A stretch of DNA of 64,000 bases. Origin: Myxococcus fulvus (GTDB lineage Bacteria; Myxococcota; Myxococcia; Myxococcales; Myxococcaceae). Numbering within the stretch: position 1 is the first letter of the stretch; the number at the start of each line of letters is the position of its first letter. The translations under genes and the position numbers were made by a program. The DNA lies in NCBI RefSeq assembly GCF_900111765.1, contig NZ_FOIB01000006.1, forward strand, positions 310,001 through 374,000, read 5' to 3'. The notes under the pieces were generated by a model, which did not search any database, was not told the origin of the DNA, and worked only from the letters and a program-made list of their open reading frames with translations. Positions 46,714-62,851 of this stretch are shown here, piece after piece.

Positions 46714-46859
46714 CACCCCGCGGGGCCGTGTCGTGTTGTCATCAGAACACCACACCTTGGACGTCCCCTCTCCAACTCCGGGGTGACCTGTTTGTAAGAA
46801 TAAGGGGGTGTCGGCAATAAAGCAGACCTGACGCGTTCTCTGGTCAAGGAGGATGGGCA

Positions 46860-47447
46860 ATGAGCTCGAGGCCGCGATTGAGGGTGGTGGAGCCTCCGTC
46901 AGGGGATTCAGGCGCGGATTTCGAGGCATTCGCCCGCCAGTATCAACCGCTGCTGTTTGCCATTCTTCGCAAGTACTGTGTCGGGATTGAACATGAAGTG
47001 GAGGATTTGGTGCACGATGTGTTGCTTCGTGCGCTCCTCCGGTGGGACCACCTACAGCGTTGGGACACCTTCAAGCAGCGCTCGTGGTTGGGGCGGGTGG
47101 CGGAGAACTGTTTCCTGGACCGGTGTCGGCGTCGCCGCAGTGAGTCGGACCGGCTGCGGGGGCTGCTCGAGCTGGCCGTGGACGCGGAGGAGCGCGACGC
47201 GCTGGAGCAGGACGAGCTCTGGGGCTACGTCGGCGTGGAGGACTTACGGTGGGCGCTGAGCTTCCTGAGTCCCACGCTGCGTCGGACCTTCGAGTTGTAT
47301 CTCCAGGGGTGGTCCTACTCGCGAATCGCCCGGGAGACGGGCGTGGCGCCGGGCACGGTGGGGGCGCGGCTGCACCACGCGAGGTTGGAGCTGCGCGAGG
47401 TCTTGAAGGAGACGGCTGAGCGGCGTCGGCGGGAGCGGAGGCAATGA
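46860..47447 (+). CDS. ECF RNA polymerase sigma factor, module 1
   Basis: 195 aa; ATG a few bases after AAGGAGGATG. Region 2 is FARQYQPLLFAILRKYCVGIEHEVEDLVHDVLLRALLRW...SWLGRVAENCFLDRCRRR, with the -10 recognition and melting residues. Region 4 is LSFLSPTLRRTFELYLQGWSYSRIARETGVAPGTVGARLHHARLELREVL, a helix-turn-helix for the -35. Only regions 2 and 4 are present, as in the ECF (group 4) class. Its stop overlaps the start of the zinc-finger/CHAT gene (ATGA), the usual sigma/anti-sigma coupling. Related to the sigma factor at 51003 but clearly diverged. Confidence 0.93.
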   Translation: MSSRPRLRVVEPPSGDSGADFEAFARQYQPLLFAILRKYCVGIEHEVEDLVHDVLLRALLRWDHLQRWDTFKQRSWLGRVAENCFLDRCRRRRSESDRLRGLLELAVDAEERDALEQDELWGYVGVEDLRWALSFLSPTLRRTFELYLQGWSYSRIARETGVAPGTVGARLHHARLELREVLKETAERRRRERRQ

Positions 47448-50434
47448 CGGTTGATTGCAAGGACTTGCAACGCTTCCTCGATGGACAGATGCAGGCTCGG
47501 GAGCAGGGGAGGTTCCGACAGCATCTGGGGGGCTGCGGCGCGTGCGAGGCGCGCTTCCGGGAGTCGATGCAGCTCGAGTTGCTCGCGCAGCTCGCGATGA
47601 CGCCGGAGGTGTCGTCGCCAGCGCCCGTGCCACCGGCGCCCGCGGAGCGTCGGGAGCGGCGGACGTGGCTCCGGGGACTGCGCGGGCTCGAGGTGCTGGT
47701 GGCGGGCGTCGCGGTGTGGATGCTCCTGCCCTTCTCCTTCCCGTGGGGAGGGGAAGAGAGCGCCTGGCTGTCCGCGGAGGGCCCGCGCGTGCTGGAGGGC
47801 CGGGTGACCTATCGGGCGGTGGATGCCCACCATCGACCGTTCGTCCCGGACCGGGGCGAGGACGCGGCGCCACCGCCGGTGCCCTCATTGCCGCTGCAGG
47901 ACCTGTGGCGGATGGAGACGCGCGGAGACCTCCACGGGGTCGCCACGGCCTATCTGCTCCATGGCGCGCCCCGACAGGCGCAGGCCTTCTTGAAGCGCAT
48001 GCCCGCCTCGGCGGACCGGGATTCCGACCTCGCGCTGCTGGCGCTGGAGCAGGCGCGACAGGAGGGCTCGCTCGACACGCGCCCGGCGCGGCTGGAGGAG
48101 GCCCTGGAGCTGCTCGAGGGCGTCCTGCGCGAGTGGCCGCGCCATCCCCAGGCCCTGTGGAATCGGGCCCTGGCGTTGAGCGAGCTGGGGCTGCTGCTCC
48201 AGGCGGCCGACGCGTTCGGAGAGGTCGCCAGGTTGGGAGAGCCTGGATGGAGCGAGGAGGCGGCGCATCGGGAGCGCGTGCTTCGCGAGTCCACGTCGAC
48301 GCGCGCCCGGGCCTGGAAGGACGCCTACGCGGCGGTGCGGGAGCTGGTGACGGATTCGTCCGCGCCCCTGCCGCTGGCCGCGGCGCGTGAGCATCCCGGC
48401 ATCGTCCGGCTCGGCTTCTACGACGCGGTCAGGGCCGCGCCCTCGCGTGAGGAGGTGCTGCGCCTGGAGCCGCTGGCGCGCGTGCTCGACGAGCGCTACG
48501 GCGGAAGCGTCCTGCGCACGTGGCTGACGCGGGTGGCGGAGCGGGACTTCGCGCACCGGGGGCCGCTCTCGCGGCTGTACGGGCGGCTGCTGCTGGGCTC
48601 GCTCGCGCCGGTGGGAGAGGTGATGGAGACACTCCGGCGCTCGGGCGAGGAGGACTTGTACCTGGGCGCGCTGGTCCTCGCGGACGCCTACCGGGAGCCC
48701 GTCGATTCGCAGGCGGTGATTCGCCTGGCGCGCGCCTCCGGGGACCCCTGGATGCGCGTCCTCGCGGACCAGGAGCAGGCGAAGCTCTGGGAGCGTGAGG
48801 GCCAGTGGTGGAGGGCCGAGCAGCGCTTGTTGGAGGCGCTGGACACCTGTCAGAAACAGGGCCTGGTGTACCGCTGCCTGGGCCTGCAGCGGAGGCTCGC
48901 CGACCTCTATCTGGCCCAGCACCGTCCCGCGGAGGCCTTCCAGCACGCGTGGAAGGGATGGTCGCGCGCGCTGGAGGCCCGGGAGTGGCACTTCGAGCAG
49001 GACTTCCTCCAGGAGCTGGCGGACGTGGCGCGCTACCAGCACGCGTTCACCACCGCGCGCGCGTATCTGGAGGAGTCTTTGGGGCGCATGCCGGAGGACT
49101 GCGCCCAGCGCACGCACGTGCACCGGAACGTGGCGTTGCTGGAGTGGCAGCGCTTCCGACCGGAGGCCGCGCGCGCGGCGCTGGAGCGCGCGATGGAGTG
49201 TGAGCGGCCGCTGGGGCTGACGGGCGCCTGGGTCTTGTCGGAGATGGCGCGCGCGGTGCCCGGGCCCCATGACGGCGCGCTGCTGCGTCGGACCCTGGCC
49301 GACCTGCGACGGGGACCTGTCTCTCCAGGGCTGGAGGCGCTGCTGCTCGTCATCGAGGGGCAGTTCCTGCTCGAGCAGCCGGGGACCTCTGGCCGTGAGC
49401 TGGTGCATCGGGGCCTGGAGATGGCGGACCTGGAGCCGGACAGCGTCGACGCGCGCAAGGCCCGCGCCTTCGGCTACTCCGCGCTGCTCTCCCAGGCGGG
49501 ACGCGCTGGCGCGTGGGAGGAGGCCCTGGCGCTGATGGGCCACGAGCTGCGCGTGGAGCCCGTGGCGCCGAGCTGTCTGCTCGCGGTGTCCGTGCAACAC
49601 GAGCGGACCCTGGTCCTCGTGCGCGGTCTTCAAGGGGAGCTGAAGGGGGTGTACTCCACCGGGCGCCAGGTGCCGCTGCGAGACGAGGCCACGGGGCTGG
49701 TGCCCGCCGAGCTCGTGAAGGAGCTGGCGGGCTGCGAGCACGTCGACGTGCTCACCCGTCCGCCGGTCCATGGGCTCGCGGGGCTGTTGCCGGACTCGCT
49801 CGCGTGGAGCTACCGCGTCGGGCGGGGCGCGAGGGGTGTGCCCGCTCGCACCGGGCCCTCGATGCATCTGGTGGTCACCGAGGTGGCGAGCCCGCCGTCC
49901 CTGCGGCTGCCGAGACTGGCCCCGCTGACGCCACCTCGCGTTCCGGACCCGTGGCGCGTGGAGCTGCGCGGCGCGGAGGCGACACCCACGCGCGTGCTGG
50001 CGGAGATGGCCCAGGCGTCCGAGGTGGAGCTCCACACGCATGGGCTGTTCAGCGCGTCCCAGTCGGATGCGTCGATGGTGGTGCTCGCGCCGGAGGCGGA
50101 CGGCGGCTACGTGCTGACGGCGGACAAGGTCCGTCAGGCGCGGCTGAGTCATGCGCCGCTGGTGTTGCTCGCCACCTGTGGGGCCGCGAGGACGGCGCCC
50201 TTTCCCCACGAATCCTTCAGCCTGCCCATGGCCTTCATCGAGGCGGGCGCGAGCGCGGTGTTGGCGGCGTCCGTGGAGATTCCCGACTCCGCGGGCGCCT
50301 TCTTCGAGCGGGTGCGAGAGCGCATCCGCGCGGGCGAGCGGCCCTCGGTGGCGTTGAGGGACTTGCGCGCCTCGTGGTTGCTCGAGCGCCCCGACGACGC
50401 CCGCTGGCTGTCGCGCGTGCTGCTGTTCGAGTGA
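47444..50434 (+). CDS. Anti-sigma-like zinc head + TM + helical repeats + CHAT protease, module 1
   Basis: 996 aa. Residues 1-50 form a putative zinc-binding anti-sigma (ZAS-like) head with C5, H27, C31, C34 (H-x3-C-x2-C in RQHLGGCGACEARF). A Pro/Ala linker with a basic patch (RRERRTWLRGLR) precedes one transmembrane helix (about 82-100). About 130-760 is helical, TPR-like (LEEALELLEGVLREWPRHPQALWNRALAL and following). The C-terminal CHAT domain has the His-Cys dyad: H864 in VELHTHGLF and C912 in VLLATCGAARTAP. Coupled to the sigma gene by ATGA overlap. Likely a membrane sensor that holds the sigma factor; protease action is inferred from intact catalytic residues. Confidence 0.85.
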   Translation: MTVDCKDLQRFLDGQMQAREQGRFRQHLGGCGACEARFRESMQLELLAQLAMTPEVSSPAPVPPAPAERRERRTWLRGLRGLEVLVAGVAVWMLLPFSFPWGGEESAWLSAEGPRVLEGRVTYRAVDAHHRPFVPDRGEDAAPPPVPSLPLQDLWRMETRGDLHGVATAYLLHGAPRQAQAFLKRMPASADRDSDLALLALEQARQEGSLDTRPARLEEALELLEGVLREWPRHPQALWNRALALSELGLLLQAADAFGEVARLGEPGWSEEAAHRERVLRESTSTRARAWKDAYAAVRELVTDSSAPLPLAAAREHPGIVRLGFYDAVRAAPSREEVLRLEPLARVLDERYGGSVLRTWLTRVAERDFAHRGPLSRLYGRLLLGSLAPVGEVMETLRRSGEEDLYLGALVLADAYREPVDSQAVIRLARASGDPWMRVLADQEQAKLWEREGQWWRAEQRLLEALDTCQKQGLVYRCLGLQRRLADLYLAQHRPAEAFQHAWKGWSRALEAREWHFEQDFLQELADVARYQHAFTTARAYLEESLGRMPEDCAQRTHVHRNVALLEWQRFRPEAARAALERAMECERPLGLTGAWVLSEMARAVPGPHDGALLRRTLADLRRGPVSPGLEALLLVIEGQFLLEQPGTSGRELVHRGLEMADLEPDSVDARKARAFGYSALLSQAGRAGAWEEALALMGHELRVEPVAPSCLLAVSVQHERTLVLVRGLQGELKGVYSTGRQVPLRDEATGLVPAELVKELAGCEHVDVLTRPPVHGLAGLLPDSLAWSYRVGRGARGVPARTGPSMHLVVTEVASPPSLRLPRLAPLTPPRVPDPWRVELRGAEATPTRVLAEMAQASEVELHTHGLFSASQSDASMVVLAPEADGGYVLTADKVRQARLSHAPLVLLATCGAARTAPFPHESFSLPMAFIEAGASAVLAASVEIPDSAGAFFERVRERIRAGERPSVALRDLRASWLLERPDDARWLSRVLLFE

Positions 50435-50579
50435 GCCTTCCTCGCGGCACGCGTGCTCCCCGCCCGATGGGACGTGAGAGGTTCAACGCAACAAGAAAGA
50501 CCTGGGGCGTTTTGTTCCATGAGGACTGCGCGCTCCCGCATCCGGCGGGAGAGGGGCGGGGTCCCAGGAGCAGCGTGCC

Positions 50580-50771
50580 ATGATGGGCAGGATGAACGAG
50601 GCGAAGTCTTCGGAGCAGATCACCCCGATGGCGATGCTCCCGGAGGTCCACCACCCCACTCCGGGACCGTCTTCTGACGTGGGGCTGGATGGCGACGGGG
50701 AGGTGCCGGTGCCGCCGCCTCCGTCCAAGCCCGATGTGAGGGACCCGCCTCCGGACGGGCCGCGGGGCTGA
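50580..50771 (+). CDS. Proline-rich microprotein downstream of CHAT gene 1
   Basis: 63 aa; ATG 9 bases after AGGAG. No signal peptide, helix or Cys. The second half is Pro/Asp/Gly-rich with PEVHHPTPGP, GDGEVPVPPPPSKPDVRDPP. The gene after the second CHAT gene encodes a similar peptide sharing E-V/I near the middle and PVPPPP(S/A)(K/R)P near the end, which supports that both are real. It lies 145 bp after the CHAT stop and 231 bp before the next sigma gene. Function unknown; candidate CHAT substrate or inhibitor (inference). Confidence 0.55.
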   Translation: MMGRMNEAKSSEQITPMAMLPEVHHPTPGPSSDVGLDGDGEVPVPPPPSKPDVRDPPPDGPRG

Positions 50772-51002
50772 GCGCTCATCCTGGCGCGTCCGGTGAGGGC
50801 GCGTCGGTCGCAGGGCATCCGAGCGGGCGTCCAAGGCGCTCGGTGTCTGTCTCACCATGCCCCGGGGCCACCCGGCCCCAGGGCGTGGAGCGATGTCCTG
50901 GAGCCACCGGAACCCTGCGTGACTGCGTCGGTTTCCAGACGACGACCCAAGGATTCGGGGTGGCTGCGTTTCGAGTGGGCGTGGAAGGAGGGCGAGGGGT
51001 CG

Positions 51003-51599
51003 ATGAGGGACCATCGCATTGCCTCGGTGAAGCGATTCGCCGTGGCCTACAGTGCCCGCGTGGCACACGAAGGCTTCGAGGAGTTTGCTCAGCGCGTCAG
51101 GCCCATGCTCGTGGCCCTGGCGAAGCGTCTGTGCGGTCAGGGGGGCATCGACCCGGAGGACCTGGCGCAGGAGGCGCTGGTGCGCGCGCTCGTGCACCAC
51201 GCGGCGTTGTCCGCGCAGCCGGAGCCCGTGTATCGCGCGTGGCTGTGCCGGGCGTTGACCAATCATTTCCTGGACCAGTGCCGCAAGCGCCGCACGGAGC
51301 TGCTGGAGCAGGAGCGCCGGGACATCCGGCTGGTGCGCGAGGACGTGGGCTCGCCCGACGCGGTGACGGGGGAGATGTGGGAGCGCATCTCCGACGCGGA
51401 CCTGCTCAAGGCCATCGCCCGGCTGCCCAACGCCCGCGTGCGTGAGGCCTTCGAGCTGCACGCCAAGGGGCTGCGCTACCGCGCCATCGCCCAGCGCATG
51501 GGCGTGCCCGAGGGCACCGTGGGCAGCTGGCTGTTCCAGGCGCGCAAGGAGCTGCGCGAGCTGCTGATGCCGCTGACGGATGGCGGAGGGGACGCATGA
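51003..51599 (+). CDS. ECF RNA polymerase sigma factor, module 2
   Basis: 198 aa from the ATG of MRDHRIASVKRF after GGAAGGAGGGCGAGG; an upstream in-frame start at 50793 is rejected as it adds 70 unconserved residues. Region 2 is FAQRVRPMLVALAKRLCGQGGIDPEDLAQEALVRALVHH...RAWLCRALTNHFLDQCRKRR; region 4 is LLKAIARLPNARVREAFELHAKGLRYRAIAQRMGVPEGTVGSWLFQARKELRELL. Paralogue of the sigma factor at 46860, with the same ATGA overlap to a zinc-head/CHAT gene. The 50772-51002 gap upstream has no recognisable promoter motif. Confidence 0.93.
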   Translation: MRDHRIASVKRFAVAYSARVAHEGFEEFAQRVRPMLVALAKRLCGQGGIDPEDLAQEALVRALVHHAALSAQPEPVYRAWLCRALTNHFLDQCRKRRTELLEQERRDIRLVREDVGSPDAVTGEMWERISDADLLKAIARLPNARVREAFELHAKGLRYRAIAQRMGVPEGTVGSWLFQARKELRELLMPLTDGGGDA

Positions 51600-54500
51600 G
51601 CCCCCCGTGTCACAAGCTGTACCTGTTCCTGGATGGTGAGCTGCCCCCGGTCGACGAAGAGAACTTCCGCCACCACCTGGCGCGCTGTCCCATGTGCGCC
51701 ACGGGCCTGCACGAGGCGATGCAGCTCGAGCTGCTCGGCTTCCAGGCGCTCCACGAGGAGGGGCTCCCGTCCGATGACGAGCTGATTGCCGCGCCCGAGG
51801 CGGTGTTGCCCGCGTGGCCGACGCCGCCCTGGCCCCGGCCGTCGTGGCGACAGCGGCTGCGCTCGCTCGCGCCCGCGTGGCCGCGCGCCGTGAAGGTCTG
51901 GGCCGTGGGGGGCGTGGCGCTGGCCGCGGTGCTGCTGGCGCTGGTGCTGGCCGTGCCGATGTCTCGCCAGACGCCGCCCGAGGTATGGGGCGCTCATGTC
52001 TCACAGCGAGGGCTGGAGGGGCGCGTGGCATACGCGCGGGCGGATGGGTATCGGCGCTACGTGCCGATGCGCGCCGGGCCCGAGGCGCCGGAGTCGACGA
52101 CGCCCTTGCCGCTGAGCGAGCTGGCCGAGCTGGAGGAGCGGGGAGACCTGCACGGCATCGCGGCCGCGTACCTGGTGCGTCAGGACTGGCGTCAGGCGTC
52201 GGACTTCCTGCGACGCACGCGGCCTTCCGTCGACCGCGACAGCGACCTGGCCCTCATCGCGCTGGAGCAGGGGCGGCGCGAGGAGGCGCTGGAGCTGCTG
52301 GAGGCCGTGCTGCGCGCGGCGCCGAACCATCCCCAGGCGCTGTGGAACCGGGCGCTGGTGCTGCGCGAGCTGGGGCTGTCGCTCCAGGCGGCCGAGGCCT
52401 TCGACGCGGTGGTGAGGCTGGGGGAGCCGGGCTGGAGCGAGGAGGCGCGTCTTCGCGCCACGGCGCTGCGCAGCGAGACGAACCTGCGCTCGCGCGACTT
52501 CCATGACGCCCGCGCGGCGGCGCAGAACCTCGCCTCGCTGGAGGGCTCGCGGCTCCCGCTCGAGGAGGCCCGCCGCTTCCCGGGCGTGGTGCGCCTGGTC
52601 TTCTATGACGCGGTGAGGGCCGCGCCCACGCGCGAGGCGGTGCTGCGCCTCTTGCCGCTCGCGCGGGTGCTGGACGAGGTGCAGGGGGGCTCCACGCTGG
52701 CCGACACGGTGAACCGCGTCTCGCTCGCGGACTTCCAGCGCCGAGGGCCCCTGGCGCGCGACTACGCCCGGCTGCTTCGCCAGGAGCACCCCACGCCGGA
52801 CGCGTTCCTGGAGACGCTGCGGCGCTCCGGGGAGGAGGACCTGTACCTGGGCGCGCTCGTCACGCTGGACGCGGTGGAGGGGCACCTGGACGACTTCGAG
52901 CGCATCGCGCGGGCCAGCCAGGACCCGTGGCTGGTGCTCTTGGCCGAGCGCGAGCTGTCCGTGCGCGAGGAGCGCGAGGGGCAGTGGTGGAAGGCGGAGC
53001 AGCGGCTGCGCGCGGCCCTGGCCTCCTGCACGGGGCGGGGGCTGGCATACCGGTGCGCGACGCTGCGGCGCAGGCTCGTGGACCTCTTCGTGCGCCTGCA
53101 TCGCCCGGCCGACGCGCTGGAGGATGCCCGCGAGGGTCTTCGCCTGACGCGCGAGCTGGGCGAGTGGAACCTGGAGCAGCAGTTCCTCCAGGAGATGGCG
53201 CAGATTGCCCGCTACCGTCACAGCGCGGCCAGCGCGCGCGCGTTCCTGCGCGAGTCGCTGTCGCGCATCCCCGACGACTGCGAGCAGCGCACGTACGTGC
53301 ACCGCAACCTGGCCACCGTGGCGTGGGCGGACTTCCGTCCGGACGAGGCGCGCGACGAGCTGGAGCAGGCCACGCGCTGCGGACGTCCCCTGGGCATGCC
53401 CGGCGCCTGGGTGTTGTCCTATCTGGCCCGCCATGGCGCGCAGGTGCGCGACGAGGACCTGCTGCGGCGCACGCTGGGGGAGCTGCGACGCGGCTCGCGC
53501 ACGCCCGGTGAGCTGGCGCTGCTGTCCTTCCTGGAGGGCCAGTTCATGCTGGAGCGCGAGCGCGCGTCCGGGCGGGAGCTGCTGCTCGGCGCCATCGACG
53601 CGGCCCAGGCGCTCCCGCTCGACGTGGACGCGCGCAAGGCCCGCACCTTCGCCTATGGCGTGCTGGTGAGCGACGCGGGCCGCGCGGGCGCGCAGGAGCA
53701 GGTGCTGGAGCTGATGGGCCAGGCCCTGCGCGTGCCCGTGCCGGAGCGCTGCGTGCTCGCCGTGGCGGTCGACCACGAGCGCACGGTGGCCGCCGTGAGG
53801 GACTCGCAGGGGGCGCTGGTGGGCACGTACGACGACCACCGCACCGCGCCCCTGCATGCCTCCGCCGACGGGCTCGTCCCGGCGAGGCTGGTGGCGGCCC
53901 TGCGCGGCTGCGCGCACGTGGATGTGCTGGCGCTGCCTCCCGTGCACGGCCTGCCGGGCCTGCTGCCGGCGGACCTGGCGTGGAGCTACCGCGTGGGCCG
54001 CTCGGGCGTCGCCCCGGAGGCGCGCGGACAGGCGGGCCATCACCTGGTGGTGACGGGCGTGGAGGCGCCCCGCTCGCTGGCGCTCGAGAAGCTCCTGCCC
54101 CTGGAGGCGCCGCGCGTCCCGGACCCGCTGCGCGTGGAGCTGCGAGGCGCGGCGGCCACGCCCTCGCGCGTGCTGCGCGAGATGGCCCAGGCGCGGGAGA
54201 TAGAGCTCCACACGCACGGCCTCTTCAGCCCGGAGCTGTCGGATGCCTCGCTGCTGATACTGGCGCCCGAGGAGGACGGCCGCTACGCGCTCGCGGCGAC
54301 GCAGGTGCGCGAGCAGCCGCTGCACGGCGCGCCCCTGGTGCTGCTCGCCGCGTGTGGCGCCGCCCGCGCCGCGCCCTTCCTCCACGAGTCGGTGAGCCTG
54401 CCGGTGGCCTTCATCGAGGCGGGCGCGCGCACCGTGCTCGCCTCCACCGGTGACATCCCCGACACCGCGGGGCGCTTCTTCGAGTCCGTGCGCGAGCGCA

Positions 54501-54607
54501 TCCGCGCCGGAGCCCCGGCCTCCCAGGCCCTGCGCGACGAGCGCCTGGCGTGGCTGTCCCGCGAGCCGTCCGCGACCTGGCCCGCCCTCGTCCTGCTGTT
54601 CGAGTGA
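51596..54607 (+). CDS. Anti-sigma-like zinc head + TM + helical repeats + CHAT protease, module 2
   Basis: 1003 aa. Layout matches module 1 residue for residue in key places: C5, H27, C31, C34 (RHHLARCPMCATGL), basic linker, transmembrane helix at 101-121 (VWAVGGVALAAVLLALVLAV), helical repeats (about 140-770), and CHAT His872 (IELHTHGLFSPELSD) with Cys920 (VLLAACGAARAAPF). The His-Cys distance is 48 in both paralogues. Positive charge before the helix suggests the head in the cytosol and repeats plus CHAT in the periplasm. The N-terminal MQLELL helix after the zinc site is identical in both and may bind the sigma factor. Functional assignment beyond domains is inference. Confidence 0.85.
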   Translation: MSPPCHKLYLFLDGELPPVDEENFRHHLARCPMCATGLHEAMQLELLGFQALHEEGLPSDDELIAAPEAVLPAWPTPPWPRPSWRQRLRSLAPAWPRAVKVWAVGGVALAAVLLALVLAVPMSRQTPPEVWGAHVSQRGLEGRVAYARADGYRRYVPMRAGPEAPESTTPLPLSELAELEERGDLHGIAAAYLVRQDWRQASDFLRRTRPSVDRDSDLALIALEQGRREEALELLEAVLRAAPNHPQALWNRALVLRELGLSLQAAEAFDAVVRLGEPGWSEEARLRATALRSETNLRSRDFHDARAAAQNLASLEGSRLPLEEARRFPGVVRLVFYDAVRAAPTREAVLRLLPLARVLDEVQGGSTLADTVNRVSLADFQRRGPLARDYARLLRQEHPTPDAFLETLRRSGEEDLYLGALVTLDAVEGHLDDFERIARASQDPWLVLLAERELSVREEREGQWWKAEQRLRAALASCTGRGLAYRCATLRRRLVDLFVRLHRPADALEDAREGLRLTRELGEWNLEQQFLQEMAQIARYRHSAASARAFLRESLSRIPDDCEQRTYVHRNLATVAWADFRPDEARDELEQATRCGRPLGMPGAWVLSYLARHGAQVRDEDLLRRTLGELRRGSRTPGELALLSFLEGQFMLERERASGRELLLGAIDAAQALPLDVDARKARTFAYGVLVSDAGRAGAQEQVLELMGQALRVPVPERCVLAVAVDHERTVAAVRDSQGALVGTYDDHRTAPLHASADGLVPARLVAALRGCAHVDVLALPPVHGLPGLLPADLAWSYRVGRSGVAPEARGQAGHHLVVTGVEAPRSLALEKLLPLEAPRVPDPLRVELRGAAATPSRVLREMAQAREIELHTHGLFSPELSDASLLILAPEEDGRYALAATQVREQPLHGAPLVLLAACGAARAAPFLHESVSLPVAFIEAGARTVLASTGDIPDTAGRFFESVRERIRAGAPASQALRDERLAWLSREPSATWPALVLLFE

Positions 54608-54713
54608 AGTGTCCGCTCCTCAAGGATTCCGACCCGCCACGTTCTGGTGTTGACGCTTCGCCACAGGTGGCGGCGCGTCGACCTTGAACCGTCGAACCCA
54701 GGGGGAGCCTCAC

Positions 54714-54887
54714 ATGAGGAATTCGAACTCGAGGATGCCGGGCCTCATCGCCCACGAGATTCCAGATCCACCGCCGGAGCGGGACCGGGGCCTGCGCGCC
54801 CCCACGGAGGAGGCCCCCGACGCCCTCTCCGCCAAGCCGCCCGTCCCGCCGCCCCCCGCCAGGCCCGCTGTCAATCCGGAGCGGTGA
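54714..54887 (+). CDS. Proline-rich microprotein downstream of CHAT gene 2
   Basis: 57 aa from the ATG of MRNSNSRMPGLIAHEI, preceded by GGGGGAG; an in-frame ATG at 54684 lacks such a site. It ends PPVPPPPARPAVNPER. Resembles the 63-aa peptide after CHAT gene 1 in length, position and the E-I/V...P-V-P-P-P-P-(A/S)-(R/K)-P pattern. No membrane segment or known domain. It is followed 57 bp later by a strong terminator, which makes it the last gene of module 2. Confidence 0.55.
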   Translation: MRNSNSRMPGLIAHEIPDPPPERDRGLRAPTEEAPDALSAKPPVPPPPARPAVNPER

Positions 54888-58021: not shown

Positions 58022-59644
58022 TCAGCTCACATCGGCCCAGGTCAGGCCGAAGCGCGCCAGGTACTTCTTCAGTCGGTCCGCGTCGTTGACGCTCGACTTG
58101 CGAGCACGGGACTGAGCGAACAGCACGCGCCCGGCCTCCGAGAGCGAGCGGCTTCCCTGGCACACCCCCAACACGTCCGCGAGCTGGACGCGGTCGAACC
58201 GGTCCAGCTCCGAGGCGAGCTCTTCACCGAGCACCTCCGCGACCCGGTCCACACCGCTCGTTGTCGACACGGGACCCGGGCGAGTACTGCCCGTCCGCCA
58301 CTGCGTGCGCAGGCGCTCCAGCTCCTCGTCCACCACCTCACGGGTGATGCGCCCCCCGGGCGCGAGCGTGGCCATGCGCAGCACCGCGGCGTTGAGGTCC
58401 CGGAAGTTGCCTGACCAGCGCGCATCGGGCGAGGTGGCGAAGCGCAGGAAGCGCTCCTGGGCCTCCTTGTTCAGCGTGATGCGCGCGCCCATCGCCTCCG
58501 ACGCCCGGTCCAGCTCGTAGAGCAGGTTCGGCGGGATGTCCTCGGGGCGCTCGCGCAGCGCGGGCAGTCGGAAGGTCCACAGGTTGATGCGCGCGAGCAG
58601 GTCCTCACGGAAGCGTCCGCGCTCCACCTCGGTCTGCAAGTCCCGGTTCGTACCGGCGATGAGCTGGAAGTCGCTCTCCACCTCCTTGTCCGAGCCCACC
58701 GGCAGGAACCGCTTGTCCTCCAGCGCGCGCAGCAGCATGGCCTGCTCGTCAGCCCCCAGCTCCCCAATCTCATCGAGGAACAGCACGCCGCCGTTCGCCT
58801 GCCGCAAGAGTCCAGGCCGGTCCTGCAGCGCGCCGGTGAACGAACCCTTCACATGTCCGAAGAGCGCGGACATGGCCCCATCGCCGCGCAGCGTGGCGCA
58901 GTTGAGGTCCACGAACGGCCCGCTCACCGTGCCGCGCGACTTCTTCAGCGTGTAGACGCGGCGCGCGAGCTGCGACTTGCCCGCGCCCGTGGGACCGGTG
59001 ATGAGCAGCGGCGCGCGCGAGTGACTGGCCACCTGTTCGATGCGCTCGATGATGTGGTTGAACGCCGCGTTGCGCGTGTCGATACCCGCCTTGAGGTACG
59101 ACAACCCCTCGCGCTGCTCACGCTGGAAGCGCGCCGCCAGCGTGTCGTAGCGCGACAGGTCCAGGTCGATGAGCGTGTTCGTCCCCGCGCCCGCCTTGTC
59201 CCGAGGGTCCGGTGACAGCTGCACCAGCCGCCCCGGAATCAGCCGGCTCTCCACCAACAGGAACATCGAGATCTGCGCGATGTGCGTGCCCGTGGTGATG
59301 TGGACCAGGTAGTCCTCCTCCTCGGGGTTGAAGGTGTACCCGCGCACGTAGTCGAGCAGCGCGCCGTACGTCTCCTCCAAATCCCACGGGTTTCGGATGT
59401 CCAGCAGCGTGGTGCGCACCGACGTCTCCGGCGACACCTGTCGGATGTCCGCCACCACCGTCGCGGCAATCTGTGTGGCCGCCGGCGGGTGCAACAGCTC
59501 CAGCCGGTGCACCACCAGGTCCTCCTGCTGGCACAGCGCCACCGTGGGCCGCCACTTCGTCCACCGGTTCGGGCCCTGCCCCGTGTCGAGCGTCGTCCCC
59601 AGCATGCCCAGGACCACCGTCTGCCGCGTGCGTGTCTTCGCCAT
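58022..59644 (-). CDS. rtcR: Sigma-54-dependent regulator RtcR (CARF domain)
   Basis: 540 aa. N-terminal CARF-type domain (about 1-170; VVLGMLGTTLDTGQGPNRWTKWRPTVAL, HITTGTHIAQISMFLLVESRLIPGRLVQL) that senses RNA-derived ligands in RtcR. AAA+ domain: Walker A GPTGAGKS (217-224), GSFTGA loop (267-272; the canonical first Ala is Ser) and Walker B LFLDE. The C-terminal part ends in a Fis-like helix-turn-helix (SLSEAGRVLFAQSRARKSSVNDADRLKKYL). It activates the rtcB sigma-54 promoter on the opposite side of the intergenic region. An inverted repeat lies 1 bp upstream of its ATG, so self-control is possible. Confidence 0.94.
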   Translation of the reverse strand: MAKTRTRQTVVLGMLGTTLDTGQGPNRWTKWRPTVALCQQEDLVVHRLELLHPPAATQIAATVVADIRQVSPETSVRTTLLDIRNPWDLEETYGALLDYVRGYTFNPEEEDYLVHITTGTHIAQISMFLLVESRLIPGRLVQLSPDPRDKAGAGTNTLIDLDLSRYDTLAARFQREQREGLSYLKAGIDTRNAAFNHIIERIEQVASHSRAPLLITGPTGAGKSQLARRVYTLKKSRGTVSGPFVDLNCATLRGDGAMSALFGHVKGSFTGALQDRPGLLRQANGGVLFLDEIGELGADEQAMLLRALEDKRFLPVGSDKEVESDFQLIAGTNRDLQTEVERGRFREDLLARINLWTFRLPALRERPEDIPPNLLYELDRASEAMGARITLNKEAQERFLRFATSPDARWSGNFRDLNAAVLRMATLAPGGRITREVVDEELERLRTQWRTGSTRPGPVSTTSGVDRVAEVLGEELASELDRFDRVQLADVLGVCQGSRSLSEAGRVLFAQSRARKSSVNDADRLKKYLARFGLTWADVS

Positions 59645-59645
59645 C

Positions 59646-59671
59646 GGGATAGGACTTTATCCCAAGGGATA
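59646..59671. promoter_or_regulatory. Probable RtcR binding site (three GGGATA half-sites)
   Basis: GGGATA (59646-59651) and TATCCC (59658-59663) form a perfect 6+6+6 inverted repeat, followed by a third GGGATA (59666-59671). The cluster lies between the rtcR start and the rtcB sigma-54 promoter, about 43-70 bp upstream of the latter, a usual place for an enhancer site. Half-site number and symmetry suit a bacterial enhancer-binding protein. Confidence 0.65.
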
Positions 59672-59713
59672 CGCCGAGCCAGTGCTCTTGCGATGCTCCC
59701 CTCTGAAGCGGGG

Positions 59714-59730
59714 TTGGCACGCCGGCTGCT
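59714..59730 (+). promoter_or_regulatory. Sigma-54 promoter of rtcB
   Basis: TTGGCACGCCGGCTGCT has the invariant GG (59716-59717) and GC (59728-59729) exactly 10 bp apart, with a full TTGGCAC -24 element and a CTGCT -12 element (consensus TTGCW). Transcription should start near 59741, giving a leader of about 49 nt before rtcB. Confidence 0.9.
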
Positions 59731-59789
59731 CTAGGTCCCAGCGTGCCCGGGAAACAGAGCCCAGGGCGAACGACCGAAAGGTGAAGGCC

Positions 59790-61025
59790 ATGGAGCGCAA
59801 CAAGGTGAACTACGAGGTGCTGTCGGACGAGGCGGGTCGCCCCATCAAGTCGTGGACCGTGGGCGTGCCGTTCGAGGACGAGGCCAAGAAGCAGCTCCGA
59901 AACCTCCGTGGCCTGCCCTTCATCCACAAGTGGATCGCCGCGATGCCGGACGTGCACCGCGGCTACGGCGCGACGGTCGGCAGCGTGGTCCCGACGGTGG
60001 GCGCGGTGGTGCCGGCGGCGGTGGGGGTGGACATCGGCTGCGGAATGATTGCCGTGCGCACGACGCTGCGCGCGGACCAGCTCCCGGACTCGCTGCGTGG
60101 GGTGCGCTCGGCCATCGAGCGGGCGGTGCCGCATGGCCGCTCGGACAACGGCGGCCGTAACGACGTCGGCGCGTGGCGCGTGGCTCCGGCCTCGCACCAG
60201 AAGGAGTGGGCGCGACTGATGGAGGGGTATGACCGCATCGTCGCCAAGCACCCGCGCATCGGCCGTGGGCCGGACCTGGGTCACCTGGGTACGCTCGGCA
60301 CGGGGAACCACTTCATCGAGCTGTGCCTGGACGAGTCGGATGGCGTGTGGCTGATGTTGCACTCCGGTTCGCGCGGCGTGGGTAACCGCATCGGAAGCCA
60401 CTTCATCGAGCTGGCGAAGGAGGACATGCGCCGCTGGTACATCAACCTGCCCGACGCGGACCTGGCGTACCTGCCCGAGGGCTCCGAGCACTTCGACGAC
60501 TACGTCTTCGCGGTGAGCTGGGCGCAGGACTACGCGGCGACCAACCGCGAGCTGATGCTGCGTGGCGCAATCGAGGCCCTGCAGATGAGCAACGAGCTGC
60601 CTCCGTTCGAGCTGTCTGAAGCGGCGGTGAACTGCCATCACAACTACGTGGCGCGTGAGCACCACTTCGGGAAGAACTGCTTCGTGACGCGAAAGGGCGC
60701 GGTGCGGGCGCGCGAGGGTGACCTGGGCATCATCCCCGGCAGCATGGGGGCGCGCTCGTTCATCGTCCGCGGGAAGGGGAACGCGGACAGCTTCCACTCC
60801 TGCAGCCACGGCGCGGGTCGGGCGATGTCGCGTGAGGCGGCGAAGAAGCGCTTCACGCTGGAGGACCACGCGAAGGCGACCGAGGGCGTGGAGTGCCGGA
60901 AGGATGCCGAGGTGATTGACGAGACGCCGGCGGCGTACAAGCCCATCGACGCGGTGATGGCGGCGCAGTCGGACCTGGTCGACGTGGTCCACACGCTCAA
61001 GCAGGTCGTTTGCGTGAAGGGGTAG
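59790..61025 (+). CDS. rtcB: RNA-splicing ligase RtcB
   Basis: 411 aa from MERNKVNYEVLSDEAGRPIK; the frame continues upstream to 59397 but that overlaps the promoter and rtcR. Catalytic features: DIGCGM with D81 and C84 (Mn ligands), GTGNHFIEL (His174), LMLHSGSRGVGN (His191), VNCHHNYV (His 283-284) and the guanylated H340 in SFHSCSHGAGRAMS. RtcB joins 2',3'-cyclic phosphate or 3'-phosphate RNA to 5'-OH ends using GTP and Mn2+. E. coli-type paralogue by length and presence of RtcR. Preceded by a sigma-54 promoter, so induced under RtcR control. Confidence 0.97.
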   Translation: MERNKVNYEVLSDEAGRPIKSWTVGVPFEDEAKKQLRNLRGLPFIHKWIAAMPDVHRGYGATVGSVVPTVGAVVPAAVGVDIGCGMIAVRTTLRADQLPDSLRGVRSAIERAVPHGRSDNGGRNDVGAWRVAPASHQKEWARLMEGYDRIVAKHPRIGRGPDLGHLGTLGTGNHFIELCLDESDGVWLMLHSGSRGVGNRIGSHFIELAKEDMRRWYINLPDADLAYLPEGSEHFDDYVFAVSWAQDYAATNRELMLRGAIEALQMSNELPPFELSEAAVNCHHNYVAREHHFGKNCFVTRKGAVRAREGDLGIIPGSMGARSFIVRGKGNADSFHSCSHGAGRAMSREAAKKRFTLEDHAKATEGVECRKDAEVIDETPAAYKPIDAVMAAQSDLVDVVHTLKQVVCVKG

Positions 61026-61081
61026 ACGGCACCACCCCGACTCCTGCACGCGAGGTGACCATGCCGGGATGACGACATCGA

Positions 61082-61136
61082 GGCGCCCGCTCCCCCCAAG
61101 AGGCCGAAAGGCCGCCAGAGTGGGGGAGCGGGCGCC
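61082..61136. terminator. Strong bidirectional terminator after rtcB
   Basis: GGCGCCCGCTCCCCC (61082-61096) pairs perfectly over 15 bp with GGGGGAGCGGGCGCC (61122-61136); the loop holds a nested GGCCgaaaGGCC hairpin. It separates rtcB from the convergent lipoprotein gene. Confidence 0.85.
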
Positions 61137-61157
61137 GCTATTTCAGGGCAGGGCGCT

Positions 61158-61601
61158 TCAGCGCGAGCGGCCCTGGCACCAGCCGGAGGGGCTGCACGTG
61201 CGCATGCCGTCGCACTGACAGGCGCTCCAGCAGCGGTTGGAGCCGCCCGGGTTCCAGGCCTCGTTCCAGTAGTAGTTGGGGCTGGTGCAGCTCACGCCGG
61301 GGCGCGCGGTGCCCTGGCACCAGCCGGCCGAGCTGCAGGTGCGCATGCCGTCACATTGGCAGCTGTTGGTGCACCGGTTGGGGCCGCCCGGGTTGCGGCC
61401 CTCGTCCCAGTAGTAGTTGTAGAACTGGCACTGCGACTGCTCCTGGGAGGTCTCCTCCAGGGCGGAGTCGTCGGGCGGAGCGGATTCCATCTCCGTGGCG
61501 GGCGCCTCCATGTTGTCCGGGCCACACGCGGACGTGAGGACCATGAGCAGCGCCGCGAGGGGGACCATCAGATTGCGAGCAATGAGACTGCGAGAGACCA
61601 C
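61158..61601 (-). CDS. Cysteine-rich lipoprotein with two tandem repeats
   Basis: 147 aa from a GTG five bases after GGAGG (signal peptide VSRSLIARNLMVPLAALLMV then LTSAC lipobox, Cys about 26); a far upstream ATG at 61781 is rejected. After an acidic linker (MESAPPDDSALEETSQEQSQ), two copies of a roughly 45-residue unit follow: YNYYWDEGRNPGGPNRCTNS-CQCDGMRTCSSAGWCQG and PNYYWNEAWNPGGSNRCWSA-CQCDGMRTCSPSGWCQG. The Cys spacing C-x3-C-x-C-x5-C-x4-C is shared, with one more Cys before each unit, suggesting a small disulfide-bonded domain. The family is not recognised. It lies between rtcB and rtcA on the opposite strand. Confidence 0.75.
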   Translation of the reverse strand: MVSRSLIARNLMVPLAALLMVLTSACGPDNMEAPATEMESAPPDDSALEETSQEQSQCQFYNYYWDEGRNPGGPNRCTNSCQCDGMRTCSSAGWCQGTARPGVSCTSPNYYWNEAWNPGGSNRCWSACQCDGMRTCSPSGWCQGRSR

Positions 61602-61834
61602 GACTGCCTCCAATGCAAGACACGCTTCCGCGGTGAGAGCCTCGGAAGCGCGGTTCGTGTAAGGCCTGGCGCGGGCGCGCGGTGGCTTTTCTGGAGGAGC
61701 GCTGGGTTGTGGATGCTTCGGGTGTTGACTGACACCGCGCGTGGCCGGTAGCGGGCCGGAGTGCGGGGCGTGCTCGCGCATGTCAGATTGCGCGGGTGGG
61801 GCCGTGAGGCGTGGGAAGACGGGAGAGACGAGAC

Positions 61835-62851
61835 ATGCTGCGCATCGATGGTTCCAAGGGAGAGGGCGGCGGCCAGGTGCTGCGCACGTCGCTGGCGTTG
61901 TCGCTGGTGACGGGGACGCCGTTCACGATGACGAACATCCGCGCGGGCCGCGCGAAGCCGGGCCTGTTGCGCCAGCACCTGACGGCGGTGAAGGCGGCCG
62001 AGGCGGTGGGCGCGGCGGAGGTGTCCGGCGCGGAGCTGGGCTCGCGAGAGCTGACGTTCCAGCCGCGCGCCCTGGCGGCGGGCAACTACCACTTCGCCGT
62101 GGGCACGGCGGGCAGCGCGACCCTGGTGTTGCAGACGGTGTTGCCCGCGCTGCTGGCCGCGAAGGAGCCGTCCACGCTGATGCTCGAGGGCGGGACGCAC
62201 AACCCGGCGGCGCCGCCGTTCGACTTCCTGGCGCGCGCCTACCTGCCGCTGTTGCGGCGCATGGGCGCCGACGTGACGGCGACGCTGGACCGGCCCGGCT
62301 TCTTCCCGGCGGGCGGCGGGAAGTTCCGCGTGGACGTGCGGCCCCAGGCGCTCAAGCCCCTCTCGCTGATGTCGCGCGGACGGGTGCTGCGCCGCGAGGC
62401 GAAGGCGGTGGTGTCGATGATTCCCTTCGACGTGGCGAAGCGCGAGCTGGAGACGGTGGGCTCGCTCCTGGAGCTGCGTCCCGACCAGCTCCGCCCGGAG
62501 GAGCTGAAGCGCGGGCAGGGGCCCGGCAACGCGCTCGTGGTGGAGGTGGAGAGCGAGCACGTGACGGAGGTCTTCACGGGCTTCGGGGAGCGCGGCAAGC
62601 GCGCGGAGACGGTGGCGGAGGAGGTGGCCGCCGAGGTGAAGCGCTACCTGAACGCGGAGGTGCCCGTGGGCGAGCACCTGTGTGACCAGTTGCTGCTGCT
62701 GTGCGCGCTCGCGCGCGGTGGTGAGTTCCGCACGCTGCCCCTGGATGGGCACGCGCTGACGCAGCTCGAGACGATGGCTCACTTCCTGGACGTGAAGGTG
62801 GACGTGGGCGAGGTGGACCGCGACGTTCGCGACGTGGTGGTGCGCGGCTGA
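61835..62851 (+). CDS. rtcA: RNA 3'-terminal phosphate cyclase RtcA
   Basis: 338 aa from MLRIDGSKGEGGGQVLRTSL after GGGAGAG; a GTG at 61811 would add eight residues. Family motifs: DGSKGEGGGQVLRTSLALS (nucleotide-binding), HLTAVKAA, FAVGTAGSATLVLQTVLPALL, EGGTHNPAAPPFDFL, GFFPAGGGKF and GPGNALVVEVESEHVTEVFTGFGERGKRAE. The adenylated His is H306 in LDGHALTQLETM. It converts RNA 3'-phosphate to 2',3'-cyclic phosphate with ATP, a substrate class of RtcB. Unlike in E. coli it is not in one transcript with rtcB: a convergent gene and a terminator lie between. No good sigma-54 site precedes it. Confidence 0.95.
   Translation: MLRIDGSKGEGGGQVLRTSLALSLVTGTPFTMTNIRAGRAKPGLLRQHLTAVKAAEAVGAAEVSGAELGSRELTFQPRALAAGNYHFAVGTAGSATLVLQTVLPALLAAKEPSTLMLEGGTHNPAAPPFDFLARAYLPLLRRMGADVTATLDRPGFFPAGGGKFRVDVRPQALKPLSLMSRGRVLRREAKAVVSMIPFDVAKRELETVGSLLELRPDQLRPEELKRGQGPGNALVVEVESEHVTEVFTGFGERGKRAETVAEEVAAEVKRYLNAEVPVGEHLCDQLLLLCALARGGEFRTLPLDGHALTQLETMAHFLDVKVDVGEVDRDVRDVVVRG

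Follow-up and report, generated by a model that had tools for sequence, protein, structure and literature searches.

Tandem ECF sigma factor cassettes of Myxococcus fulvus belong to a large family of predicted membrane-spanning anti-sigma proteins of the DdvS/DdvA kind

The closest described relatives of the genes reported here are those of Myxococcus xanthus for the extracytoplasmic function (ECF) sigma factor DdvS and the anti-sigma protein DdvA. According to the portions of the two reports available to us, DdvS controls an island of CBASS (cyclic oligonucleotide-based anti-phage signaling system) and type III-B CRISPR genes (PMC12288465), loss of DdvA activates DdvS, and the signal that inactivates DdvA was not known as of 2015 (PMC4374960). 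Two further systems bring CHAT proteins together with ECF sigma factors. In Craspase, as described in excerpts of PMC10028731, Csx29 acts in the Cas7-11 complex, target RNA activates it, and a separate inhibitor is cut; for group ECF54, excerpts of PMC8999054 describe CHAT-domain proteins in the gene neighborhood and propose proteolytic control, with no anti-sigma factor assumed. Here we analyze a 64,000-nucleotide stretch of Myxococcus fulvus DNA (contig NZ_FOIB01000006.1, positions 310,001 to 374,000 of the forward strand; hereafter the window), which contains two consecutive cassettes, each with an ECF sigma factor gene overlapping by ATGA a gene of about 1000 codons whose product joins a zinc head, a transmembrane (TM) helix, tetratricopeptide repeats (TPR) and a CHAT domain.

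This architecture is already known as the DdvS/DdvA design, and the window cassettes are new members of a large family. From the sequences we consider it highly probable that both cassettes encode membrane-spanning units of ECF sigma factor and anti-sigma, built like DdvS/DdvA; this applies to the sigma/anti-sigma core and to the topology. Computation shows homology to DdvA, the domain order, overlapping genes, a conserved catalytic dyad and conserved Cys pairs, co-divergence of sigma factor and head, and a shared promoter-like element. The core features, in window positions, are as follows.

46860..47447, + strand: ECF sigma factor 1, 195 residues (Sigma70_r2 51.1 bits, Sigma70_r4_2 41.5 bits, TIGR02937 74.3 bits)
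47444..50434, + strand: big1, predicted DdvA-type anti-sigma 1, 996 residues (zinc head, TM helix, TPR, CHAT; H866, C912)
47444..47593, + strand: predicted zinc anti-sigma head of big1, residues 1-50 (C5, H27, C31, C34; zf-HC2 23.5 bits)
47684..47740, + strand: TM helix of big1, residues 81-99 (hand-counted), with a basic flank on its N-terminal side
51003..51599, + strand: ECF sigma factor 2, 198 residues (Sigma70_r4_2 48.5 bits, Sigma70_r2 43.0 bits)
51596..54607, + strand: big2, predicted DdvA-type anti-sigma 2, 1003 residues (zinc head, TM helix, TPR, CHAT; H874, C920)
51596..51745, + strand: predicted zinc anti-sigma head of big2, residues 1-50 (zf-HC2 27.1 bits; DdvA N-terminal domain 8rlz, E 9.6e-7)
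51896..51952, + strand: TM helix of big2, residues 101-119 (helix 105-118 in the structural model)
53741..54604, + strand: CHAT region of big2, residues 716-1003, boundaries set by us (Pfam match 847-990, 59.7 bits; separase and Csx29 structural matches)

The list of open reading frames (ORFs) starts sigma factor 2 at GTG 50793; we took ATG 51003 as the start instead because a promoter-like element lies at 50948-50974. The layout of two cassettes with ATGA overlaps had been put forward in an original prediction made from the window sequence, and the ORF coordinates agree with it, as does our alignment with its placement of C5, H27, C31 and C34 at identical positions in both large proteins. Both proteins contain the head pattern of zinc-binding anti-sigma (ZAS) factors, HxxxCxxC with an upstream Cys or His, and both zf-HC2 scores exceed the Pfam cut-off of 22.2 bits; the zinc head also has weaker matches to RsiW (E 4.3e-4) and to RsrA, the latter below the RsrA cut-off. 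A C-terminal CHAT domain, likewise anticipated for both, was recovered in a whole-protein Pfam scan of big2, and in big1, where it is not listed for the whole protein, it scored 57.6 bits when the C-terminal 292 residues were scanned alone. A peptidase fold of clan CD and a His-Cys dyad are both present, as judged from Pfam, the alignment and structural matches.

DdvA is related to the window proteins over their whole length. A phmmer comparison of big2 with DdvA (8rot) gave E 1.2e-136, and a profile of 59 family members found one full-length relative of solved structure, M. xanthus DdvA (8rot, E 1.4e-250), together with 8rlz, its N-terminal domain. The AlphaFold2 model of big2 (pLDDT 86.8, pTM 0.81) superposed on DdvA by VIA-align with Z 45.1 and a root-mean-square deviation of 3.9 over 868 residues at 38% identity, and Foldseek matched the two at E 5.6e-49; ranked below DdvA were Csx29 (Z at most 19.6), generic TPR proteins (at most 17.6) and separases (at most 17.3). 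Sensor-like repeats, an anti-sigma head and a caspase-like domain do share one polypeptide, in line with the fusion proposed earlier. The original prediction named neither DdvS/DdvA nor the membrane side of the parts, the small gene behind each large gene or the six other family members of the genome. Since DdvA itself occurs at 100% identity in one of 27 genomes of the genus and the next best match listed has 44%, we regard the window proteins as paralogues of DdvA.

Matches at E ≤ 1e-30 were found in 67 of 195 Myxococcota genomes; as no more than four candidates per genome were scored, these matches give minimum copy numbers. Among 84,980 species genomes, a scan that relies on exact peptide patterns and cannot show absence elsewhere gave 91 relatives, and the best 80 of the 91 were kept (75 loci). 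The records of these 75 are named as myxobacteria or their metagenome-assembled genomes (MAGs), except one Comamonas and one labeled only Deltaproteobacteria; the contig labeled Comamonas sp. (L102, BNCN01000015.1) carries a Myxococcus-like family locus and is perhaps mislabeled or contaminated. We read 117 loci, with L038-L042 (repeats of stretches from the M. fulvus genome) excluded. Members whose profile match starts before column 100 and ends after column 960 were called full length (108 members; 97 after removal of those at least 98% identical). Among the incomplete copies, that at L033 1483-4185 stops before the end of CHAT, L054 5635-9899 holds a second, overlapping partial copy, and L109 1-3090 is a broken MAG member, split between two frames and running to the contig edge, which was not counted. 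The M. fulvus genome has eight members, the tandem pair and six more: L004 and L005 have a zinc head and an ECF gene, L003, L006 and L007 have no zinc head, and at L008 a zinc-head/TM/TPR protein without CHAT stands beside an ECF gene, near the free TPR-CHAT gene L003.

In the 97 non-redundant members, H874 (H866 in big1), followed by Gly and located 46 residues ahead of the Cys, is kept in 97 of 97, and H872 in 96; H874, C920, C478, C487, C719 and C772 of big2 are all invariant. The original prediction had set the catalytic His and Cys 48 residues apart. A His does stand at that position (H872/H864), but it is probably not the catalytic one, for which the sequences favor H874/H866; DdvA retains the equivalent of H874 only, not of H872.

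The zinc head and the ECF gene go together. Searching for the same gene pair across genomes, as had been suggested, we found an abutting ECF gene at all 57 headed full-length members and at none of 34 headless ones (0/34; two of the 34 have less than 700 bases upstream); the 40 unheaded members comprise these 34 and six cut by contig ends. Over the 57 pairs, sigma and head distances correlate with r 0.956, and with 0.84 when the TPR distance is held, whereas the sigma-CHAT correlation with the TPR distance held is 0.01. This co-divergence fits a head that binds its cognate sigma factor, as predicted, and the adjacency, the co-divergence and the homology to DdvA together make the zinc head the likely cognate sigma-binding part.

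A single hydrophobic helix lies between the zinc head and the TPR region. In headed members the mean net charge of the 20 residues before and after this helix is +3.6 and +0.6, respectively, and is higher before than after in 49 of 57. The Cys residues beyond the helix number seven in 50 members, eight in 31, nine in 9 and five in 7. A Cys near position 562 and C595 occur together in 90 of the 97 members and are both missing in 7, with no member having just one, and the members with five Cys are equal in number to the 7 without this pair. The Cys pairs, with one catalytic Cys besides, fit periplasmic disulfides. From the TM helix, the charge bias and the paired Cys we predict that the zinc head is cytoplasmic and that TPR and CHAT lie outside. 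Because CHAT would then be on the opposite side of the membrane from the head and the sigma factor, it should not cut the zinc head directly, and could make at most a first cut outside the membrane. These features speak against the earlier proposal, read here as an entirely cytoplasmic protein in which CHAT frees the sigma factor by cutting its own zinc head. The single-chain domain order it builds on is real, and in the available excerpts of PMC10028731 Craspase offers a precedent of a TPR-CHAT protease cutting a sigma inhibitor, but a TM helix, flanked by basic residues toward the head, separates head from TPR, one of the Cys pairs is gained or lost as a unit beside two that never vary, and the sigma factor co-diverges with the head and not with CHAT, so that we consider this arrangement very improbable.

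By homology with DdvS/DdvA, we infer that the head binds sigma, that sensing is periplasmic, and that release is followed by autoregulation. The N-terminal zinc head would bind and silence the sigma factor encoded upstream, in the cytoplasm, while one TM helix would carry the TPR coil and CHAT into the periplasm as a receptor. An envelope signal would inactivate the anti-sigma, and the freed sigma factor would transcribe its own operon from an AAGNNW-N12-CGTY element; sigma factor 2 may also drive a distant, probably non-coding transcript. The elements ahead of the two window sigma genes are given here.

46815..46841, + strand: promoter-like element of sigma factor 1, CAATAAAGCAGACCTGACGCGTTCTCT, a variant (AATAAA) when aligned with the family element
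50948..50974, + strand: promoter-like element of sigma factor 2, CAAGGATTCGGGGTGGCTGCGTTTCGA

The AAGNNW-N12-CGTY element occurs upstream of 66 of 83 ECF genes, a set that includes near-identical orthologues so that the 66 are not independent events, versus 131 of 5678 length-matched background windows from which the true regions had been masked out. By class it was found in 34 of 37 big2, 4 of 8 big1, 4 of 12 c4, 8 of 9 c5 and 16 of 17 split loci. The spacing is 12 in 66 regions, and no alternative between 4 and 24 is seen in more than 3; this sharp spacing across classes is a stronger point than the count. An earlier scoring placed 29 of 83 sites above the 99th percentile of background windows that could overlap true sites. 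CAATAAAGCAGACCTGACGCGTTCTCT has its sole match in the M. fulvus genome at up to 3 mismatches (backward control 0), and CAAGGATT-N11-CGTTTSGA was found at up to 1 mismatch in 26 of 27 genomes of the genus (backward control 0). An upstream element is conserved before the ECF genes, and each sigma factor may drive its own promoter. The suggestion of two parallel pathways is plausible in that the two window elements differ; but the tandem pair makes up two of the eight family members in the genome, and the shared CGTY core leaves room for the cross-talk offered as its alternative.

Several observations weigh against the sigma/anti-sigma reading or parts of it. Seven short members (six Corallococcus and one Myxococcaceae MAG) have a zinc head without an ECF gene of their own, and the adjacency of head and sigma on the DNA could partly account for, and inflate, their correlation. 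The charge bias, seen in 49 of 57 headed members, holds in merely 27 of 40 unheaded ones (mean +2.7 before and +1.4 after the helix). Seven Cys beyond the helix are present in only 50 of 97 members, extra Cys being common and unexplained. The 83 regions used for the count had been viewed before the promoter-like element was worded, and the wording was fitted to them; a first, stricter wording (AAGRRA) had matched 26 of 83. The 17 regions without the element include 8 of the 12 c4-class genes, for which a fit is seen only by eye and with a looser reading. Finally, when up to 2 mismatches are allowed, the sigma factor 2 element has 3 sites in the M. fulvus genome and the backward control has 1. 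As to the short members, six of the seven were inspected, and upstream of each lie an ECF gene and a family frame of weaker score. At L111, the sole one examined closely, this frame is a short zinc head, and loci of this type look like a reduced tandem. The six loci (L110, L111, L112, L114, L115 and L117; five Corallococcus and one Myxococcaceae MAG) share the order of an ECF gene and weak family frame, then a zinc-head/TM/TPR protein lacking its own ECF gene and CHAT.

For CHAT we tentatively prefer, at somewhat less than even confidence, the role of an on-board site-1-type protease, which would cut a periplasmic stretch of its own chain or of a partner and leave what remains in the membrane to the usual proteases of membrane and cytoplasm. 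In 17 split loci an ECF gene overlaps the gene of a zinc-head/TM/TPR protein without CHAT, with conserved C-termini near big2 positions 300 or 490; the conservation of these CHAT-less anti-sigmas suggests that they work, and leaves room for CHAT acting in trans or as a scaffold. A free TPR-CHAT gene is found in the same stretch in 16 of the 17, a count biased by the fact that most split stretches were fetched through their CHAT gene, and the one belonging to L008 lies in the more extended stretch L038. Around the short members L110-L115 and L117, the fetched stretches showed no further long family gene. In two split loci (L038 7999-14225 and L059 911-7414; labels by eye) the order is a free TM-TPR-CHAT gene, a JmjC/cupin-like gene on the other strand, an ECF gene with a CHAT-less zinc-head anti-sigma, and an acyl-CoA synthetase-like gene.

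The invariant dyad favors catalysis, and the CHAT-less anti-sigmas favor a trans or scaffold role. Accordingly divided is the case for CHAT as a ligand-binding or dimerization platform whose dyad does not cut the anti-sigma, the sigma factor being freed by the site-1 and site-2 proteases of the cell or by a conformational change. Anti-sigmas without CHAT exist (17 ECF-linked split loci and seven short ones), which suggests that CHAT in cis is dispensable, and the title of 8rw5 calls DdvA dimeric; on the other hand, His and Cys are kept in every member and in DdvA, which is unusual for a pure scaffold, and the split loci, with the bias given above, do have a free TPR-CHAT. We hold this platform role to be a credible possibility, short of an expectation. 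A periplasmic caspase- or separase-type CHAT, in which ligand binding to the TPR coil leads to a cut of the own or a partner chain just outside the membrane and so starts sigma release, acting in trans on the CHAT-less anti-sigma in split loci, is possible but doubtful on present sequences. The 34 headless TPR-CHAT members without an abutting ECF gene imply that TPR-CHAT has a use of its own, and some of them belong to split loci, where an ECF gene and its anti-sigma gene lie roughly 2 kb away. CHAT might thus act on other periplasmic substrates, be it an effector or the anti-sigma of a neighbor in trans, with the sigma unit regulating its production; yet the headed chain is also an anti-sigma, and the loss of DdvA activates DdvS (in the available part of PMC4374960), which makes the chain a switch, and we find action on other substrates unlikely.

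R138 of big2, about 20 residues outside the TM helix, is 100% conserved in the 57 headed members and in 26 short, split or low-scoring headed rows (among them L106 and L109, low-scoring full or broken members), and 60% in the 40 unheaded rows, which include the six contig-edge cases; it is a weak lead for the position of a possible cut just outside the membrane. The juxtamembrane L-E141-(A/G)-R143 was considered as an auto-cleavage site and rejected: E141 and R143 are 100% conserved in the 57 headed and the 40 unheaded members alike (88% and 100%, respectively, in the 26 short or split rows), and because they are also conserved in headless proteins a structural role is indicated.

A second site of the sigma factor 2 type lies outside the window and precedes some 330 bases of conserved sequence.

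L150 2808-3140 (G000:C10): sigma factor 2-type element with a conserved stretch of about 330 bases, probably non-coding

The site and the stretch were aligned in nine genomes of the genus; in a tenth (G130) the stretch is present with the element changed. By DNA search the stretch was detected in 15 of 86 family genomes; eight matches are strong, and the other seven are weak or cover its terminator part only. Among same-strand ORFs of at least 60 residues with a third-position G+C content above 0.85, none starts within 330 bases of the site in five of six loci, and in L148 one starts at 226; judged from these same-strand ORFs only, the transcript is probably non-coding. Of 103 predicted pairs, 10 lie in hairpins varying on both sides (nine sequences from few lineages), and the covariation term makes up just -3.58 of the -159.34 kcal/mol of the fold. 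At its end stand a strong hairpin and, behind it, a T-rich run. Rfam gave one match to the stretch (E 0.67), which at 18.5 bits falls well short of the gathering score of 45 and which we take as chance. The transcript is a possible target of sigma factor 2, although another sigma factor of the family could use the site.

A small Pro-rich ORF comes after each of the two large genes.

50580..50771, + strand: Pro-rich microprotein 1, 63 residues, C-terminal end VRDPPPDGPRG, no Pfam match
54714..54887, + strand: Pro-rich microprotein 2, 57 residues, contains PDPPPERDRGL, no Pfam match

Counted over 108 members scoring at least 900, a set slightly different from the 108 full-length members, 46 of 52 in the big1/big2 subfamily have, no more than 420 bases downstream, an ORF whose product contains DPPP or DKPPP and, 2-5 residues later, a Gly; of the other subfamilies, 0 of 56 do (36 of 42 versus 0 of 56 by distinct C-termini). 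A pattern search of the genome with the microprotein motif matched nothing (3 matches in the backward control), not even the known copies. This core and its Gly are preserved between otherwise differing versions, and the motif occurs twice in some. Changes at codon positions 1, 2 and 3, summed over ten pairs of which two have no excess at position 3, number 75, 62 and 116, lending mild support to translation. Pfam has no family for the four microproteins tested, and no signal peptide or hydrophobic stretch was seen in the sequences by eye. The restriction to one subfamily and the preserved core would suit a ligand, inhibitor or substrate read by the large protein. With no export signal seen, the microprotein should stay in the cytoplasm, away from TPR-CHAT, and other subfamilies do without it; we consider such a role quite improbable.

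Between the two cassettes the large proteins are 54% identical and the sigma factors 37%. A recent duplication of the tandem was ruled out by this 54% identity and by a family gene just upstream in 17 of 39 big2-class loci (those with enough upstream DNA; some species occur twice), and for the same reasons we regard the tandem pair as old. In Pfam, the nine neighboring ORFs match a kinase, EamA, an M24 peptidase, RtcR, RtcB, RtcA, DTW and a DsbD-like protein, with one lacking a match; window positions 58022-62851 form an RNA repair cluster with the RtcR regulator, the RtcB ligase and the RtcA cyclase. PADLOC, run on the four cassette proteins only, gave no match.

The family makes the question of the signal that inactivates DdvA testable outside a defense island, and it offers as handles a conserved tandem pair, versions that are split or lack the head, a dyad without exception, a clear promoter-like element and the gene of a microprotein. 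Should CHAT cut, sigma release would have a periplasmic caspase-type start, a counterpart of Craspase across the membrane. In the parts of the DdvS/DdvA literature available to us we did not meet the microprotein, the split loci, the family-wide promoter-like element, the Cys-pair pattern or the possible distant target, with no search aimed at the microprotein or the transcript.

Compared with known systems, the cassettes stand closest to DdvS/DdvA of M. xanthus (PDB 8rot, 8rw5, 8rlz), with which they share whole-length homology, the zinc head, TM helix, TPR, CHAT and His-Cys dyad, two of their three Cys pairs, and an ECF sigma gene abutting the anti-sigma gene in both cassettes. They differ in that DdvA is only about 38% identical to big2 and lacks the C562/C595 pair, that Pfam domains of the CBASS/CRISPR island, which marks DdvA itself and not the type, were not found in the nine ORFs neighboring the cassettes, and that a microprotein gene follows each large gene. 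Craspase (Csx29 TPR-CHAT, Csx30 and CASP-sigma) likewise brings a TPR-CHAT protease and an ECF sigma inhibitor into one pathway, and in the structural comparison Csx29 chains rank next to DdvA, but in the window receptor, anti-sigma and CHAT form a single predicted transmembrane chain, and Pfam domains of the Cas7-11 effector or Csx30 were not found in the cassette proteins or the nine neighboring ORFs scanned. ZAS anti-sigma factors of the RsiW and RsrA type share the zinc head, which in the window proteins is followed, beyond the TM helix, by a TPR-CHAT region of about 880 residues. As in ECF54, CHAT proteins lie near ECF sigma genes; unlike in ECF54, the CHAT protein of the window itself bears the anti-sigma head.

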